From Flavobacteriaceae bacterium YJPT1-3 (GTDB lineage Bacteria; Bacteroidota; Bacteroidia; Flavobacteriales; Flavobacteriaceae): a stretch of 64,000 nucleotides of DNA. The position numbers and the translations under genes were made by a program. The notes below the pieces were generated by a model that searched no databases, had not been told where the DNA came from, and saw nothing but the letters and a program-made list of their open reading frames with translations. The stretch is from the NCBI GenBank assembly GCA_029866965.1, contig CP123444.1, positions 2,397,501 through 2,461,500 on the forward strand, in the 5' to 3' direction. Every line of letters starts with the position of its first letter. The stretch's first letter is position 1. This document shows, one piece after another, positions 5,350 through 11,553 of this stretch.

Positions 5350-8300
5350 CTACCGGCGAACCAATGAGAAATGTCCGCGAAAGGAACGGCCATCTTCCCG
5401 TTCTACCAGAAACCAGTAGTCGGTAGAGGGTAAATTGCGCCCATTATACGTTCCGTCCCAGCCTTCAGAAAGGGGGTCCAACTGTTTGATCAGTTTACCG
5501 TATCGATCAAAGATGTAGATAAACATGTCCGGTTCGAATTCGGAGGCTATGATCTGCCAGGTATCGTGAAAACCATCCCCATTGGGCGTAAAATAGTTGG
5601 GGTAGAACAGTAGTGAAACGGTGACTTGAAGCTCTGCACAACCACCAACATCACGAATAAAAACCGTGTATTCTCCGGGTCTCAGATCAGTAAAGGTGTT
5701 GCTTGTTTGATAAGTGATGTCGTCCAGACTGTACTCATAAGTCCCCGTGCCACTGACCTCCACCGTAAAACTATTTCGGTTGGCGGTCCAGTCGGATATT
5801 TGCACTCCTTGGAAAACGGGAGGCTCTGACAGCTGAACCACAAAAGTGGTCATACTGGTGCACATACTGGCTCCCCCTGAGGTAGTGGTCACGGTATAAG
5901 TGCCGGGATCACTCACTGAAATGGACGGTGTGGTCTCACCGGTGCTCCATAAGTAGGAATCAAAACCGGTACCGGCATCCAAAACGGTGGGCAGTCCTTC
6001 GCACAGAAAACGCTCTACGATGACCGGTGGTGGAGTAGGGATGACCTCAATAAAAAAGGAACTCAGATCGTAACAGGGCTCACCATCCAGACTGGTCAAT
6101 CGAACGAATATTTCCTGTGGAGATTGTTGATTGGTATAGTTGACCGGTAACGGATTGCTTCCTGCATCAGCCTCGGCTGCACTTTCGTGAAAGCTTACCT
6201 CATAATTACCTGCCTGACCATTAATGATCAAGGGGATTTGCGGACTGAAATCAAAACTTTCCATCCCGTCTCCCGAAGGATCATCACAACGGGTCAGATC
6301 AGGAGCCATTCCCGAGGTGGGGCTGCTTACCAAAGCGAGTTGAAAACTAGTTGTATCGTAACAACTGGGACCGTTCATATCCTGCAATCGGGCAAACAAC
6401 GTCTGCGTGGGGCTGTTGAGCAAATACGGTTGACCCTGAGCGTTGCTATTGGCGTCGGCATCCATCTGCGATAGATGAAAACTTACATTGAAAGTGCCGG
6501 TTTGTCCGTTGATGATCTCGATTACCGTTGCACTAAGGTCAACCAGTTCACTCCCATTATTTGCAAAATCACACACTTCTAAATCCATGGGTTGGCCGGC
6601 TATTGGAGCCGAACCTACATTCACCGTAAAGCTAGTGGTATCAAAACAAGCAGCGTCTGAATTGCTTTCTATTCTTGCGTGTAAGACTACTGAATTTTGA
6701 GTGGTGGTAAACGGATCGCTTAGCGCGTTGGTCCCAGCCGTAGCATCAGCCGCAGAAAGGTAATAAGTAATGGTGAAGCTGGTGGCACTTTGAGTTCCAA
6801 GCACACTGGCGTCGAAACTACTCAGGATAATCTGATTGTCAGCCACAGTTGGATCTTGATCACAGAACGATTGGGGATCTATTGTATTTGCGGTAGGTCC
6901 TGCAATGATCTCAAAGAAAAAAGATCCGGTCACGTAGCATTCCGGACTGTTTTGTGTAAAGAGTCGGTAGAATACTTCCTGACCATCGGCAAACATATCC
7001 GGAAAGGCAAACGCATTGGTCGCGTTATCTGCATCATTTTGGGTGGGATGGTATGAAACTCCGTACAAGGTGGGTGATTGTCCATTCAGTACCTCAGGAT
7101 CTTTTGTGGACAGATCAAATGAAATAGGGTCGGAGGCGCAGAGTTCTATATTGGAAACCGCATTGGCTACCGGAGCGGTAACTATGGTAAGTTCTTGGGT
7201 GGTCGTTTGCGAAATTCCATTGATGACGATGGTCAAGGATACCGTATAGGTTCCGGCAGCAGCGTAAACATGGGTGGGATTCTCTAAAGTGGAAGTAGCT
7301 CCGTCTCCAAAATCCCAGAAATAACTACTGACGTTACCGCTGACCTCTGAAAAGAACTGAGTAGTATCCCCCAGGCAAAGATTCTCAAATCGGAAATCAT
7401 TGGGTAATAATAATGATTGTACAAAAGGGGGCAGGCCTAATTTTGATCTTCGTCCGGCAAGATCAGCCCCGTTTGGGCTGTAAGCTGCTCCGGCTAAATT
7501 CCCCGGATCAGTAATTACTCCTAAAAAATCTTCGTTTAAACGCGCGACGTAGATATTACCGTCTGGTGCCATTTGCAGTGCATAAACCAGATCGCTACTA
7601 CTGTCCAGTAGTAGTCGCTCCGAAGCCAGAATAGCGGCTTCGGAACCGGCATTGAGATCGTATTGATAGATACGACTGTATCCGGAAAAGCCCGACTCTG
7701 TATCACTGATATACAGAATTTGCCCATCCAGCGAAAATTCAACACCATAGGCTCCTGTTAAGTCTGAGCCATAATTTATCGTAATGGGGTTGGAGACTTG
7801 TCCGGTGCTGTTGTCAAAATCAAAAACCTGGACAAATGAATCATCATAAGATCGTGCCAACGCCAATTTGTCTCCGGTGGCAGAGAACTTCATATACCCG
7901 ATAGCATGCTGCTGGATACCGTTATGGGGAAGTCCAACGCCGGAAACCACTGGTGTTGTAATGATCCCTGTATCATCAATTAGATAGGCGATGAATTCGT
8001 TGCTATTCCAACGATGAGCCATGACCCACACCCAGGTGCCATTGGCGTGTTCAACTGCGGTAACCTTTTCAGTAACCGGACTATCCAGAGCGATATTTTT
8101 GGTACCAATGACTGCGCCCAGTCCGCCATCCAGGGAAAGATCAATTTCTGAGTACCGAAGACCATTGGCCCCAGTCTCGAGATCTACAGTAAAGACATAA
8201 TAACGGTTTGGATCGCCCGGTTGTGGGGCGAATATGGCTGATTGCGTACTGGATGCATTGCCTAACAATCCTGTTCCATTGGCCATGACCGCATGATTCC

Positions 8301-8532
8301 GGTTCCACACCGTAATCCCGTCAGAATAGAATAATAAATTTCCGTTAGCGTCCGAAAGCGTAGAGCAACCCTCATCCGTATCGAGTTGGCCATCCAATAA
8401 GGCTACCGGTGCTCCACTATTGAAATCTAAACCGGCATTATCTCCAAAATACCAAATATTCGCACCACCCTGTGCATGAGCCAGTGTGCCTATAAAAAGA
8501 AATATAAGTAGAAAGCCCTTGGGCGTTTTCAT
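5350..8532 (-). CDS. T9SS type B cargo protein with propeller, PKD and repeat domains
   Basis: A 1060-residue exported protein. Signal peptide 1-20 (ends in AHAQ); beta-propeller-like region about 25-375 (NIWYFGDNAGLDF opening); PKD domain about 385-455 (YFWDFGDGATS, AAGTYTVSLTI); four related modules of about 90 residues, each with a cysteine-acid start and a CY(D/V)TTSF-like end; an Ig-like and a SprB-like module; and a C-terminal gliding-motility (CHU_C) domain with YPNYFTPNGDGFHDTW. This C-terminal domain targets proteins to the type IX secretion system. It is probably a large surface protein; ligand unknown. Transcribed alone, no clear promoter seen. Confidence 0.88.
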   Translation of the reverse strand: MKTPKGFLLIFLFIGTLAHAQGGANIWYFGDNAGLDFNSGAPVALLDGQLDTDEGCSTLSDANGNLLFYSDGITVWNRNHAVMANGTGLLGNASSTQSAIFAPQPGDPNRYYVFTVDLETGANGLRYSEIDLSLDGGLGAVIGTKNIALDSPVTEKVTAVEHANGTWVWVMAHRWNSNEFIAYLIDDTGIITTPVVSGVGLPHNGIQQHAIGYMKFSATGDKLALARSYDDSFVQVFDFDNSTGQVSNPITINYGSDLTGAYGVEFSLDGQILYISDTESGFSGYSRIYQYDLNAGSEAAILASERLLLDSSSDLVYALQMAPDGNIYVARLNEDFLGVITDPGNLAGAAYSPNGADLAGRRSKLGLPPFVQSLLLPNDFRFENLCLGDTTQFFSEVSGNVSSYFWDFGDGATSTLENPTHVYAAAGTYTVSLTIVINGISQTTTQELTIVTAPVANAVSNIELCASDPISFDLSTKDPEVLNGQSPTLYGVSYHPTQNDADNATNAFAFPDMFADGQEVFYRLFTQNSPECYVTGSFFFEIIAGPTANTIDPQSFCDQDPTVADNQIILSSFDASVLGTQSATSFTITYYLSAADATAGTNALSDPFTTTQNSVVLHARIESNSDAACFDTTSFTVNVGSAPIAGQPMDLEVCDFANNGSELVDLSATVIEIINGQTGTFNVSFHLSQMDADANSNAQGQPYLLNSPTQTLFARLQDMNGPSCYDTTSFQLALVSSPTSGMAPDLTRCDDPSGDGMESFDFSPQIPLIINGQAGNYEVSFHESAAEADAGSNPLPVNYTNQQSPQEIFVRLTSLDGEPCYDLSSFFIEVIPTPPPVIVERFLCEGLPTVLDAGTGFDSYLWSTGETTPSISVSDPGTYTVTTTSGGASMCTSMTTFVVQLSEPPVFQGVQISDWTANRNSFTVEVSGTGTYEYSLDDITYQTSNTFTDLRPGEYTVFIRDVGGCAELQVTVSLLFYPNYFTPNGDGFHDTWQIIASEFEPDMFIYIFDRYGKLIKQLDPLSEGWDGTYNGRNLPSTDYWFLVEREDGRSFRGHFSLVRR

Positions 8533-8634: not shown

Positions 8635-9471
8635 TTACAAATCACGCTTCTTCAGCAAGGCATAAGAGCCCCAAATGAATAAGAAAATCCAAGTACAAAC
8701 GATCACGATCTCATACCAATGTACCGCATAGTCAATGCCGATATCTGCTTTTAACTGATTGGCAGCCGACTGAACAAAATTCAATCGTTCCCAGGGTCTA
8801 TTGATCAGGTTGGACATGGATTCTAATGGGAAGAACTGGGCGATATGATCTCCGGTATCGGTCCCTTTAAACACTTTCCATTTAAGTAAGGCATAGACAA
8901 TGTTCTCCAGTATGTACCAAACAAACAGGAATCCCAGCGCAAAAGCAGAGCGCTTGACCAACATGCCCAGAAAAAGACAAAAGGAGAAAAAACCTACGAG
9001 TTTAAAGAAGTATCCGGCCAGAAACTCCAGGTCTGAAAAGACTATGCTCATTTCGGTATAATCGGAAAATGAAAATCCTAAGATCAAGGTCATGACCAGA
9101 ATAAATAGGGTGGAAATGGCAGCAAACACCACTACAGTAATAAATTTGGAAAGCACAAATTCTTTTTTGCTCAATCCATCGATCAAATTCTGCTTGATCG
9201 TACGATTGCTGTATTCATTCGACATCATGGATACGATAACGACGGCTAAAAAGAACTTTAAAGCAGCAGCGATGTAGGTATTAAAGTGCCAAATAAAGGG
9301 GAAATTAAATATGCCCTGATCGGCAATACGAACCTGAACGTCTCCAAAATTAAACTCGATGCTCGCAATGAGGGCGATAAAGGTCAGTAATACAAAATAA
9401 CTGATGGTCAGGACCTTGGCCGATTTGCTGTAACGTAATTTATTGAATTCTATAGTGAGTAATCGTAGCAT
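8635..9471 (-). CDS. ABC-2 type transporter permease
   Basis: A 278-residue integral membrane protein with about six hydrophobic segments (near residues 20-38, 65-83, 108-132, 150-170, 175-195, 250-270) in the ABC-2 permease pattern. The motif SNEYSNRTIKQNLIDGLSKKEF between the second and third segments is typical of NatB/YhaP-like permeases in this phylum. It follows the ATPase gene by 7 bp and must form an exporter with it. Substrate unknown. Confidence 0.85.
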   Translation of the reverse strand: MLRLLTIEFNKLRYSKSAKVLTISYFVLLTFIALIASIEFNFGDVQVRIADQGIFNFPFIWHFNTYIAAALKFFLAVVIVSMMSNEYSNRTIKQNLIDGLSKKEFVLSKFITVVVFAAISTLFILVMTLILGFSFSDYTEMSIVFSDLEFLAGYFFKLVGFFSFCLFLGMLVKRSAFALGFLFVWYILENIVYALLKWKVFKGTDTGDHIAQFFPLESMSNLINRPWERLNFVQSAANQLKADIGIDYAVHWYEIVIVCTWIFLFIWGSYALLKKRDL

Positions 9472-9478
9472 GTCGGGG

Positions 9479-10378
9479 TTAGTTTTGGTGGTTAGTCAGT
9501 TGTAAAAATTGCTCTTCCAGGCTTTCTTTCCGTTTGATCAAATGGGTGAGTATCACCCCTTTTTTGAACAATTGCGCATTGAGCGCCTCCGCCTCTAAGG
9601 GGGCTTCTAAGAATGCAGTAACCAAATCCCCTTCTTCCTTCAACTTGGCTATTTCCGGAATATCTTGCAGTGCCGTGATCAACTGATCGCGATGTGCTGT
9701 TTTTAACTCGAAAAATCCGTGACTCGCATTCATTTCATCCACCCGACCCGAATACAGCTTAACTCCTTTTCGAATGATCACCACATGGGTGCAGACTTTT
9801 TCTACTTCGTCCAGGAGGTGGGAGGCCAATAAGATGGTGGTACCATCTGCAGCAATTTTCTTAATGATTTCCCGTATCTGATGAATTCCCTGAGGGTCTA
9901 GGCCATTCGTTGGCTCATCAAGGATTAATATTTCGGGATCGTTGAGCAAGGCAGAAGCGATCGCTAGCCGCTGCTTCATCCCCAAACTGAAGGTGCTGAA
10001 CTTACTGTTCTTTCGCTCCAGCAGACCAACGATTTCCAACTTTTCTTCAATTTTATCCGGAGCGACACCTTTAATGGTGCAGACCAAGCTGAGGTTCTGC
10101 TTAGCGGTCATGTACGGATAGAAGTTAGGACGCTCAATGATGGCTCCTACCTTTTTAAGAGCTTCATGCGTGCTTTCTGAACCATCAAACCAATGAAAGG
10201 ATCCCGCGCTGGGATTGACTACATTGAGCACCATGCCCAGGGTGGTCGATTTCCCGCTCCCGTTAGGACCTAGAATTCCGTAGACATTGCCTTTTTGAAT
10301 GGTGAATGAAAGATCTTTTACTGCGGTGATGGGGCCAAATTGTTTGGTGAGGCCCTTGAGCGTAAGAATTGTTTCCAA
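9479..10378 (-). CDS. ABC transporter ATP-binding protein
   Basis: Full nucleotide-binding domain: Walker A GPNGSGKST, signature TFSLGMKQRLAIA, Walker B EILILDEPTNGLDPQG and switch histidine in LLASHLLDEV. The C-terminal 80 residues are the usual extension of ABC-2 exporters. The start is uncertain: a TTG at 10376-10378 gives the family-typical N terminus METILTLKGLTKQFG and is preferred; an ATG at 10403-10405 would add nine residues. Forms an operon with the permease gene, and is divergent from the kinase-like gene about 100 bp away. Confidence 0.88.
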   Translation of the reverse strand: METILTLKGLTKQFGPITAVKDLSFTIQKGNVYGILGPNGSGKSTTLGMVLNVVNPSAGSFHWFDGSESTHEALKKVGAIIERPNFYPYMTAKQNLSLVCTIKGVAPDKIEEKLEIVGLLERKNSKFSTFSLGMKQRLAIASALLNDPEILILDEPTNGLDPQGIHQIREIIKKIAADGTTILLASHLLDEVEKVCTHVVIIRKGVKLYSGRVDEMNASHGFFELKTAHRDQLITALQDIPEIAKLKEEGDLVTAFLEAPLEAEALNAQLFKKGVILTHLIKRKESLEEQFLQLTNHQN

Positions 10379-10453
10379 GAATGATTTTGTTTGGTTGCTG
10401 CCCATAAGACGAGCAGCGACGGCATTTGTTACAGCCGTGGCTAGAAATCTACC

Positions 10454-10461
10454 TATCTTTG
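10454..10461 (+). promoter_or_regulatory. Candidate -7 promoter box for the kinase-like gene
   Basis: TATCTTTG matches TAnnTTTG exactly and lies 18 bp before the ATG at 10480. No TTTG is found at the right distance upstream, so only the -7 element supports it. Confidence 0.4.
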
Positions 10462-10479: not shown

Positions 10480-11553
10480 ATGGAAGAGAAATTGATGTCA
10501 AAGAAGAAACCCACCTACCCGGTGGGAGAGAGCTTACAATCTTATTTGGACAAGTACAATCGAAGTACCCGAATTCCCATTCGCTACGATGATCTGCTAC
10601 GCTTTGCCGGCGGAGTTACGGTCTATGACAAAAATGATGAGGATACGCTGTGGATCAGTGTATACTATCCGGAATACGAACGGGAAGATCTTGAAAATCA
10701 CTTGAAGCGGGTCTACACCTTGTTGTATTCTGACGGTAACGAAGACATCCTGCCGTTCATCTCTGTAGGTGCAATCGATTACTGCACCTTTGGTAACTCC
10801 AAACCTTTCCGGGTCAAGATCAAGAATGTCTTCAACGACAATTATGTGTACTTCTACGTCAAGCGAGCGGATGCCAGCCGGATTTACGGTCTCGAACTTG
10901 AACACATTCTTTCTCCAAACCGGATCAATTTTCTGGTTTCAGAAGATACCTTGATTGAAGAACACATCGCCGGAATTCCAGGTGATGTTTTTATCGACGA
11001 CTATTTAGAAGAATGTGACGACTTCGGGAAAGCCCAGTTAGCCAAAGAGTTCGTCAAATTCAATGAACGCTGCATGATCCTGCTCCTTGGCGATATGCGT
11101 TCGTATAATTATGTAGTAATTCCCACCCACGATTTTGACCACATTAAGTATAAAATTCGAGCTATTGATTTTGATCAGCAATGCTTTGAGGGCAATTTCA
11201 AGGTCTATCGTCCACATTTTTTCAAAGAAAACTTCAAAATGGTCGATCTGGTATCCAGCCGATTGAAGAATACCGCCATCACCCAATATCAAAAAGAAGA
11301 GCGTGCCTTAATGGCTAAACGTGCGATCAATTCAAGCAGCCGATTGAAACGACTACTGCGCTGTATGAAGAAAGACCGGATTTCCACCCACGAAAATCTA
11401 AAGCGACTTCGAAAGGAACTTTACGCCTTCACCATGGACGTGAAGTTCAAGCGCTCCAAATCGATGGGACAGATCGTAGACACCGCCATACAGTTTGTCA
11501 AACGGAATTATGAAGATATCAGCATGAAGCGCCTGCTCGACGACTCTTTCTAA
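10480..11553 (+). CDS. Conserved protein of unknown function with protein-kinase-like motif layout
   Basis: I do not recognise this as a named family. About 357 residues, soluble, no signal peptide. Residue order resembles kinase/phosphotransferase folds: K128 in YFYVKRAD (ATP lysine), E139/E141 in GLELEH (helix C acid), a hinge-like LIEEHIAGIPGD, D205 and N210 in GDMRSYN (catalytic loop), and D230/D232 in IDFD (metal-binding, DFG-like). The last 120 residues are basic and helical. A start at 10495 (MSKKK) is also possible and is preceded by a purine-rich stretch. It converges with the nucleoid protein gene, overlapping it by 4 bp. Kinase activity is inference. Confidence 0.6.
   Translation: MEEKLMSKKKPTYPVGESLQSYLDKYNRSTRIPIRYDDLLRFAGGVTVYDKNDEDTLWISVYYPEYEREDLENHLKRVYTLLYSDGNEDILPFISVGAIDYCTFGNSKPFRVKIKNVFNDNYVYFYVKRADASRIYGLELEHILSPNRINFLVSEDTLIEEHIAGIPGDVFIDDYLEECDDFGKAQLAKEFVKFNERCMILLLGDMRSYNYVVIPTHDFDHIKYKIRAIDFDQQCFEGNFKVYRPHFFKENFKMVDLVSSRLKNTAITQYQKEERALMAKRAINSSSRLKRLLRCMKKDRISTHENLKRLRKELYAFTMDVKFKRSKSMGQIVDTAIQFVKRNYEDISMKRLLDDSF

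Follow-up and report, generated by a model that had tools for sequence, protein, structure and literature searches.

The stretch of DNA analysed here, hereafter the window, covers 64,000 nucleotides of the genome of Flavobacteriaceae bacterium YJPT1-3 and carries on its forward strand, at positions 10480..11553, the gene of a kinase-fold protein (ATG start, 357 amino acids plus stop codon) that belongs to a Bacteroidota family, usually single-copy, without Pfam or NCBIfam match. Because alignments with homologues begin at residues 1 to 3, translation probably starts from the ATG at 10480; a longer alternative with a TTG start at 10426 is present, with no backing from the homologue alignments. 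The sequence TATCTTTG (10454..10461, forward strand), which begins 26 nt 5' of the ATG, corresponds to TAnnTTTG, which we take to be the -7 promoter consensus of Bacteroidota. Among 109 homologous loci, 63 carry such an element no more than 60 nt before the start codon, versus a mean of 8.25 and a maximum of 17 in 200 shuffles, a comparison that takes no account of relatedness (two pairs among the 109 loci encode identical proteins); upstream of the kinase gene it is probably the -7 promoter element. In the window, the gene looks like a single-gene transcription unit because its upstream neighbour is divergent and its downstream neighbour convergent. No signal or membrane stretch was noticed by eye, and the protein is probably cytosolic.

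The original prediction, made from the letters of the window alone, had pointed to K128, E139, E141, D205, N210, D230 and D232 as an ordered, kinase-like set of residues in a protein without strong resemblance to a named family. All seven were found at these positions, in kinase-like order, in the 357-residue open reading frame. We aligned the window protein with its counterparts from 185 loci (186 rows, with seven pairs of identical rows). K128, D205, N210, D230 and D232 were identical in 186/186 rows, E141 was present in 185 (Asp in the remaining locus, L159) and E139 was kept in 174, the other 12 having Asp. Conservation of the listed residues among homologues, the check proposed with the original prediction, was thus observed. 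In a second alignment of 69 rows picked for diversity, hereafter A2, 33 columns were invariant and these included six of the seven listed residues, all but E139 (Glu in 67 rows, Asp in two). With 12 of the 105 K, D, E and N residues of the protein invariant in A2, six of seven would be obtained by chance with P = 4e-6 (hypergeometric), a value that ignores relatedness and how the seven residues were picked. Identity to the window protein was at least 41% across all fetched loci, the rows of the large alignment included, which suggests that the family evolves slowly.

Structure prediction with AlphaFold2 gave a predicted local distance difference test score (pLDDT) of 86.8 and a predicted template modelling score (pTM) of 0.85 for the window protein, and values of 94.1 and 0.90 for the homologue L150, which is 41% identical and has a deeper alignment. 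Both models predict a kinase fold, rather than one without a two-lobe kinase core; together with the residue conservation, these models support the earlier suggestion of an undescribed phosphotransferase. The C-terminal 110 residues or so are mostly helical in both, in agreement with the helical character that had been ascribed to the rest of the protein. The modelled elements follow each other in kinase order: strands 94-102, 110-116 and 122-129, the last carrying K128 at its end; helix 132-144, which holds E141; two more strands (151-154 and 157-161); a long helix starting at residue 181; the predicted catalytic loop, bearing D205 and N210; a hairpin; and D230-F-D232. The set thus resembles that of protein kinases, with a beta-3 Lys, a helix-C Glu, a catalytic Asp, an Asn and a DFG-type Asp succeeding one another on the matching secondary-structure elements.

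Further invariant residues of A2 fall in or beside the same predicted active-site parts, all on the forward strand. G105-N-S-K-P109 (10792..10806), between strands 94-102 and 110-116, resembles a nucleotide loop, with N106, P109 and the nearby R111 invariant. K128-x-x-D131-x-x-R134 (10861..10881), in which all three residues are invariant, spans the end of the third strand and the start of the putative helix C, within which E141 (10900..10902) occupies the position of the helix-C Glu. The putative linker or hinge E160-x-H162-x-x-G165-x-P167 (10957..10980), with its four invariant residues, comes after strand 157-161. The predicted catalytic loop G204-D205-M-[R/H]-x-x-N210 (11089..11109) follows the long helix, which takes the position of helix E, and its position 207 is Arg in 53 and His in 16 of the 69 rows. 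A DFG-like, presumably metal-binding motif, D230-F-D232-Q-Q (11167..11181), closes the series with D230, F231, D232 and Q233 invariant.

Foldseek searches of the PDB returned kinases with both models. The matches of the window-protein model were weak (best CDK2, E 7.7e-4); those of the L150 model included LegK4 (1.8e-5), VPS34 (3.5e-5), Rio2 (6.1e-5) and Bud32 (1.1e-4), the top eight all being kinases. The 50 PDB matches listed per run were kinases by title, apart from one title of the L150 run that names no protein, and in BFVD a phage protein with a PI3/4-kinase domain stood at rank 3 for the L150 model. We then considered the best 50 entries of VIA, which re-aligns only the top 1000 chains of Foldseek, so that families ranking lower are invisible to it. 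With the window-protein model, all of the 50 were PI3K or PI4K, the best being VPS34 (2x6k_A, Z 11.3, root mean square deviation 5.0, 261 residues aligned). With the L150 model, all were PI3K, PI4K or PIKK: VPS34 reached Z 13.8 (root mean square deviation 4.5, 284/354 residues aligned) and ATM, Tel1, SMG1 and ATR had Z between 11.8 and 12.8. In each run, seven titles name no protein and were assigned to VPS34 by residue ranges matching VPS34 rows. HipA, APH, FAM20 and LanM folds were absent from the 50 entries of either run, an absence that carries no weight in a listing of this kind. The kinase fold expected in the original prediction thus stood, as far as models go, while none of the three types proposed there for comparison, HipA, APH and FAM20, came out as closest. 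Among the matches listed, the nearest solved folds appear to be PI3K, PI4K and PIKK, a resemblance and no proof of membership.

PI3K motifs comprise a loop ending in Pro, K-x-G-D-D-x-R-Q-D, G-D-R-H-x-x-N and H-I-D-F-G, to which correspond, in the window protein, G105-N-S-K-P109, K128-x-A-D131-A-S-R134, G204-D205-M-[R/H]-x-x-N210 and I229-D230-F231-D232. By sequence, the likeness is one of order and spacing, not of identity. We consider it likely that the gene, transcribed alone from a promoter of its own, encodes a stand-alone kinase whose structure is of the PI3K/PIKK type. Several observations weigh against this reading. The Foldseek TM-scores were low, about 0.2-0.4, and the best Foldseek matches of the window protein itself were eukaryotic protein kinases (E 8e-4). 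HipA, APH, FAM20 and LanM may be equally close, outside the best 50 VIA entries. A link to PI3K at the sequence level was not obtained, with no significant profile match in Pfam or the PDB; PF00454 in particular matched neither the window protein (E ≤ 10) nor 35 members (E ≤ 1) nor 69 members (E ≤ 0.1), and was found in 0/148 genomes of the phylum sample. Of the PI3/4K signatures K-x-G-D-D-x-R-Q-D and D-R-H-x-x-N, the protein has only parts, K-x-x-D-x-x-R and D-M-[R/H]-x-x-N, and we did not file the protein under the PI3/PI4-kinase family because it departs from these strict signatures. Finally, the gene went undetected in 8 of the 37 genomes of the window's own family, so that it seems dispensable in some.

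Among the alternatives, the one that survives best is a HipA/APH-like kinase, acting on proteins or small molecules in bacteria, whose fold would align well with PI3K by chance; we regard it as rather unlikely. The catalytic loop reads G-D-M-H-[S/A]-G-N in several homologues outside the class (L148, L150, L154), which resembles the corresponding motif of APH and HipA, and hhalign placed the loop in register with D-D-H-T-K-N of HipA. However, the loop alone was in register, over 35 columns with E 0.16 and a probability of 0.4% (against an alignment of 19 of 20 fetched HipA loci, one of 247 aa having been dropped), and we rejected HipA by profile as insignificant. Neither HipA_C (PF07804) nor the Pfam profiles of APH, FAM20C and eukaryotic-like Ser/Thr kinases, matched the window protein (E ≤ 10) or the 69 members (E ≤ 0.1), and PI3K/PIKK were the nearest among the folds listed by VIA.

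The kinase was matched in 32/60 relatives (29/37 within the same family, the window genome counted), in 96/295 genomes of the class and in 80/296 genomes of the phylum sample, with one match per carrier genome except in G287, which has two. The second, divergent copy of that genome (L163) lies between genes resembling clpP and clpX by eye. Partial matches were obtained in G052, G164 and G202. In G348, which belongs to both the class and the phylum samples, the match was limited to a stretch of 41 residues (E 5e-9); this remnant (G348:C1:3158288-3158410, in a single-contig genome of 7 Mb) is a possible decayed gene. The one genome-wide scan worked with short exact patterns taken from the window protein and retained the best 80 of 206 relatives that were confirmed; at that sensitivity, a restriction of the family to Bacteroidota would be provisional.

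No family of Pfam, NCBIfam or PADLOC matched the window protein at E ≤ 10, its three PHROGs matches were all insignificant, and neither of two profile searches against PDB sequences produced a significant match (best E 0.056). With 35 and 69 members as queries, Pfam and NCBIfam returned only scattered matches of unrelated families, which reach E 0.0016, point to no shared family and were put down to chance. The profile searches proposed in the original prediction thus bore out its statement that no named family is strongly resembled. Among viral contigs, six pattern matches yielded no relative (a collection of phage records lay outside this search) and plasmids gave no kinase match; carriage by phages or plasmids was rejected on these grounds. 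No account of the family appeared among the papers listed in searches of open-access literature, although descriptions by locus tag only or in subscription journals would escape such a search. As far as this literature and the family libraries show, we are dealing with an undescribed family of predicted kinases that is common to much of Bacteroidota.

The neighbours of the gene in the window are those described in the original prediction: divergent genes for an ABC transporter ATPase (9479..10405, reverse strand) and an ABC-2 permease (8635..9471, reverse strand), and a convergent gene for the 37-kD nucleoid-associated protein NA37 (PF04245; 11550..12608, reverse strand). The two exporter genes were found at 54/80 flavobacterial loci and NA37 at 45/80, versus 0/40 divergent loci in each case; the flanks compared were of at most 6 kb, some ended by contig ends, and genes were simple longest-open-reading-frame calls of at least 80 aa, with the kinase itself lost from clustering in 4 of the 40 divergent loci. 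The adjacency of the exporter, pointed out in the original prediction, is uninformative because of this distribution. The neighbourhood is local synteny without functional weight, to be read as context only, and partnership with the exporter or the nucleoid-associated protein was rejected. A link with the type IX secretion system or gliding was also rejected, since SprA, matched in 286/295 class genomes, does not discriminate and is absent from the match lists of the carriers G098 and G314. The window also contains, at 5350-8532 on the reverse strand, a gene for a PKD-domain protein of 1060 aa that bears a CHU_C signal for type IX secretion.

Outside the class, 15 loci were fetched for context out of 23 kinase-carrying genomes, and in 10 of these loci (L148, L150, L151, L153, L155-L159, L162) the gene immediately preceding the kinase, in the same orientation, is bshA, a gene of bacillithiol synthesis; these ten represent six families, with 17-146 nt between matched ends. 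A convergent gene often follows downstream, a metallo-beta-lactamase-fold hydrolase by eye. In two genomes (L182, L183), the kinase is located 9-11 nt behind a gene resembling, by eye, an enzyme of the agmatinase/arginase family. A kinase tied to bacillithiol or thiol metabolism, which would phosphorylate BshA, an intermediate of the pathway or some redox regulator, would be compatible with a stand-alone PI3K/PIKK-type kinase, but we find it unlikely, the more so as no bshA-level match was detected beside the kinase in any of the 105 further loci searched or in 5 of the 15 outside the class. BshC is matched in 275/295 class genomes, more often in kinase carriers (94/96) than in others (181/199; Fisher P 0.026, phylogeny uncorrected), which would fit such a link. 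In the phylum sample, however, it occurs in 291/296 genomes, far more widely than the kinase (80/296), and BshC went unmatched in two of the carriers, G072 (99% complete) and G297 (76%). Because BshC is nearly universal, co-occurrence was set aside and only the adjacency of bshA is informative.

In a stand-alone kinase of the PI3K/PIKK type, ATP would bind in the interlobe cleft beneath the G105-P109 loop and K128, held by E141, would orient its phosphates, with Mg held by N210, D230 and possibly D232; D205, together with Arg/His 207, would then activate the hydroxyl that accepts the gamma-phosphate. From the conservation, the predicted fold and the positions that the residues take on secondary-structure elements of kinase type, we infer these individual roles as well as activity, and the family is apparently catalytically active. 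The variable position 207 and the replacement of the DFG glycine by Asp might instead suggest a pseudokinase or a scaffold without phosphotransfer, which we hold to be improbable: pseudokinase families usually lose at least one catalytic residue, unlike the present one, which retains its catalytic and metal-binding residues in 186/186 rows and E141 in 185. A LanM-like enzyme that phosphorylates Ser/Thr and then eliminates, on a lipid-kinase fold, is very improbable, since the 69 members have no LanM/DUF4135 match in Pfam and 357 aa are too short for a cyclase domain, even though the catalytic D347, H349 and N352 of CylM are spaced as D205-x-[R/H]-x-x-N210 (PMC4550811).

As to the substrate of a PI3K/PIKK-type kinase, inositol-1-phosphate synthase (PF01658) was found in 0/60 relatives, 32 of them kinase carriers, in a search that covered neither inositol import or other routes nor the divergent genomes and that was positive in 6/14 control genomes, one of them a Bacteroides. 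Because the relatives of the window have no detectable inositol-phosphate synthase, phosphatidylinositol is probably not the substrate in them, and a phosphatidylinositol kinase is disfavoured there. Our favoured guess, with somewhat less than an even chance, is a conserved endogenous protein, as for a PIKK. A non-inositol lipid or a small molecule is quite possible, and a substrate of another kind would be rather surprising. The broader proposal, that this phylum-level Bacteroidota family is a bacterial version, minimal and independent, of the PI3K/PIKK catalytic fold and phosphorylates a conserved endogenous protein, is tentative and somewhat doubtful.

The gene was found in about a third of the sampled Bacteroidota genomes; the active site it encodes is apparently complete, and neither Pfam nor NCBIfam has a name for it. 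Should the kinase be active, it would be a new bacterial family in the PI3K-like branch and would bear on the origin of the PI3K/PIKK catalytic domains; if it does phosphorylate an endogenous protein, it would be a signalling kinase of Bacteroidota unrelated to eukaryotic-like Ser/Thr kinases and to two-component systems. The protein being small, with a predicted active site that can be mutated, activity and substrate are open to direct experiment.

The PI3-kinase/ATM group is known mainly from eukaryotes. With its members (VPS34, p110 gamma, PI4KB, ATM/Tel1, ATR, SMG1), the closest among the solved folds listed for both models, the window protein shares the I-D-F motif, the D-x-[R/H]-x-x-N loop, the invariant Pro following the nucleotide loop and K-x-x-D-x-x-R after strand 3. 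It differs from them in being a stand-alone bacterial protein of 357 aa, usually in one copy, with D-F-D in place of D-F-G and Arg in 53/69 rows at the position of the loop His; identity in the structural alignments is about 8-12% and PF00454 is unmatched. HipA-type kinases belong to the same superfamily, with the catalytic loop in register, but profile similarity to them is insignificant and PF07804 is unmatched. DUF2252 (PF10009) has kinase-like G-D-x-H-x-x-N-F and D-F-D motifs, as in L190 and L191; we rejected it at E 0.27 by hhalign, with an alignment of only two DUF2252 sequences.

The lanthipeptide synthetase CylM is a bacterial precedent for the lipid-kinase fold: its dehydratase has this fold, with catalytic D347, H349, N352, D364 and K274, and shares with our family the D-x-H-x-x-N spacing. 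It further comprises capping helices, a KA domain and a cyclase domain, and the 69 members of the kinase family have no DUF4135 profile match (PMC4550811). Lani_1194 and the other novel families of a Legionella survey are, like the present one, unnamed bacterial kinase-fold families, and Lani_1194 has homologues in Flavobacteriales (PMC9758233). According to that survey, Lani_1194 has Arg at the position of the beta-3 Lys, no identifiable ion-pair Glu and a methyltransferase domain (PMC9758233); set apart by this description rather than by sequence alignment, the family of the window protein has an invariant K128 and a nearly invariant E141.
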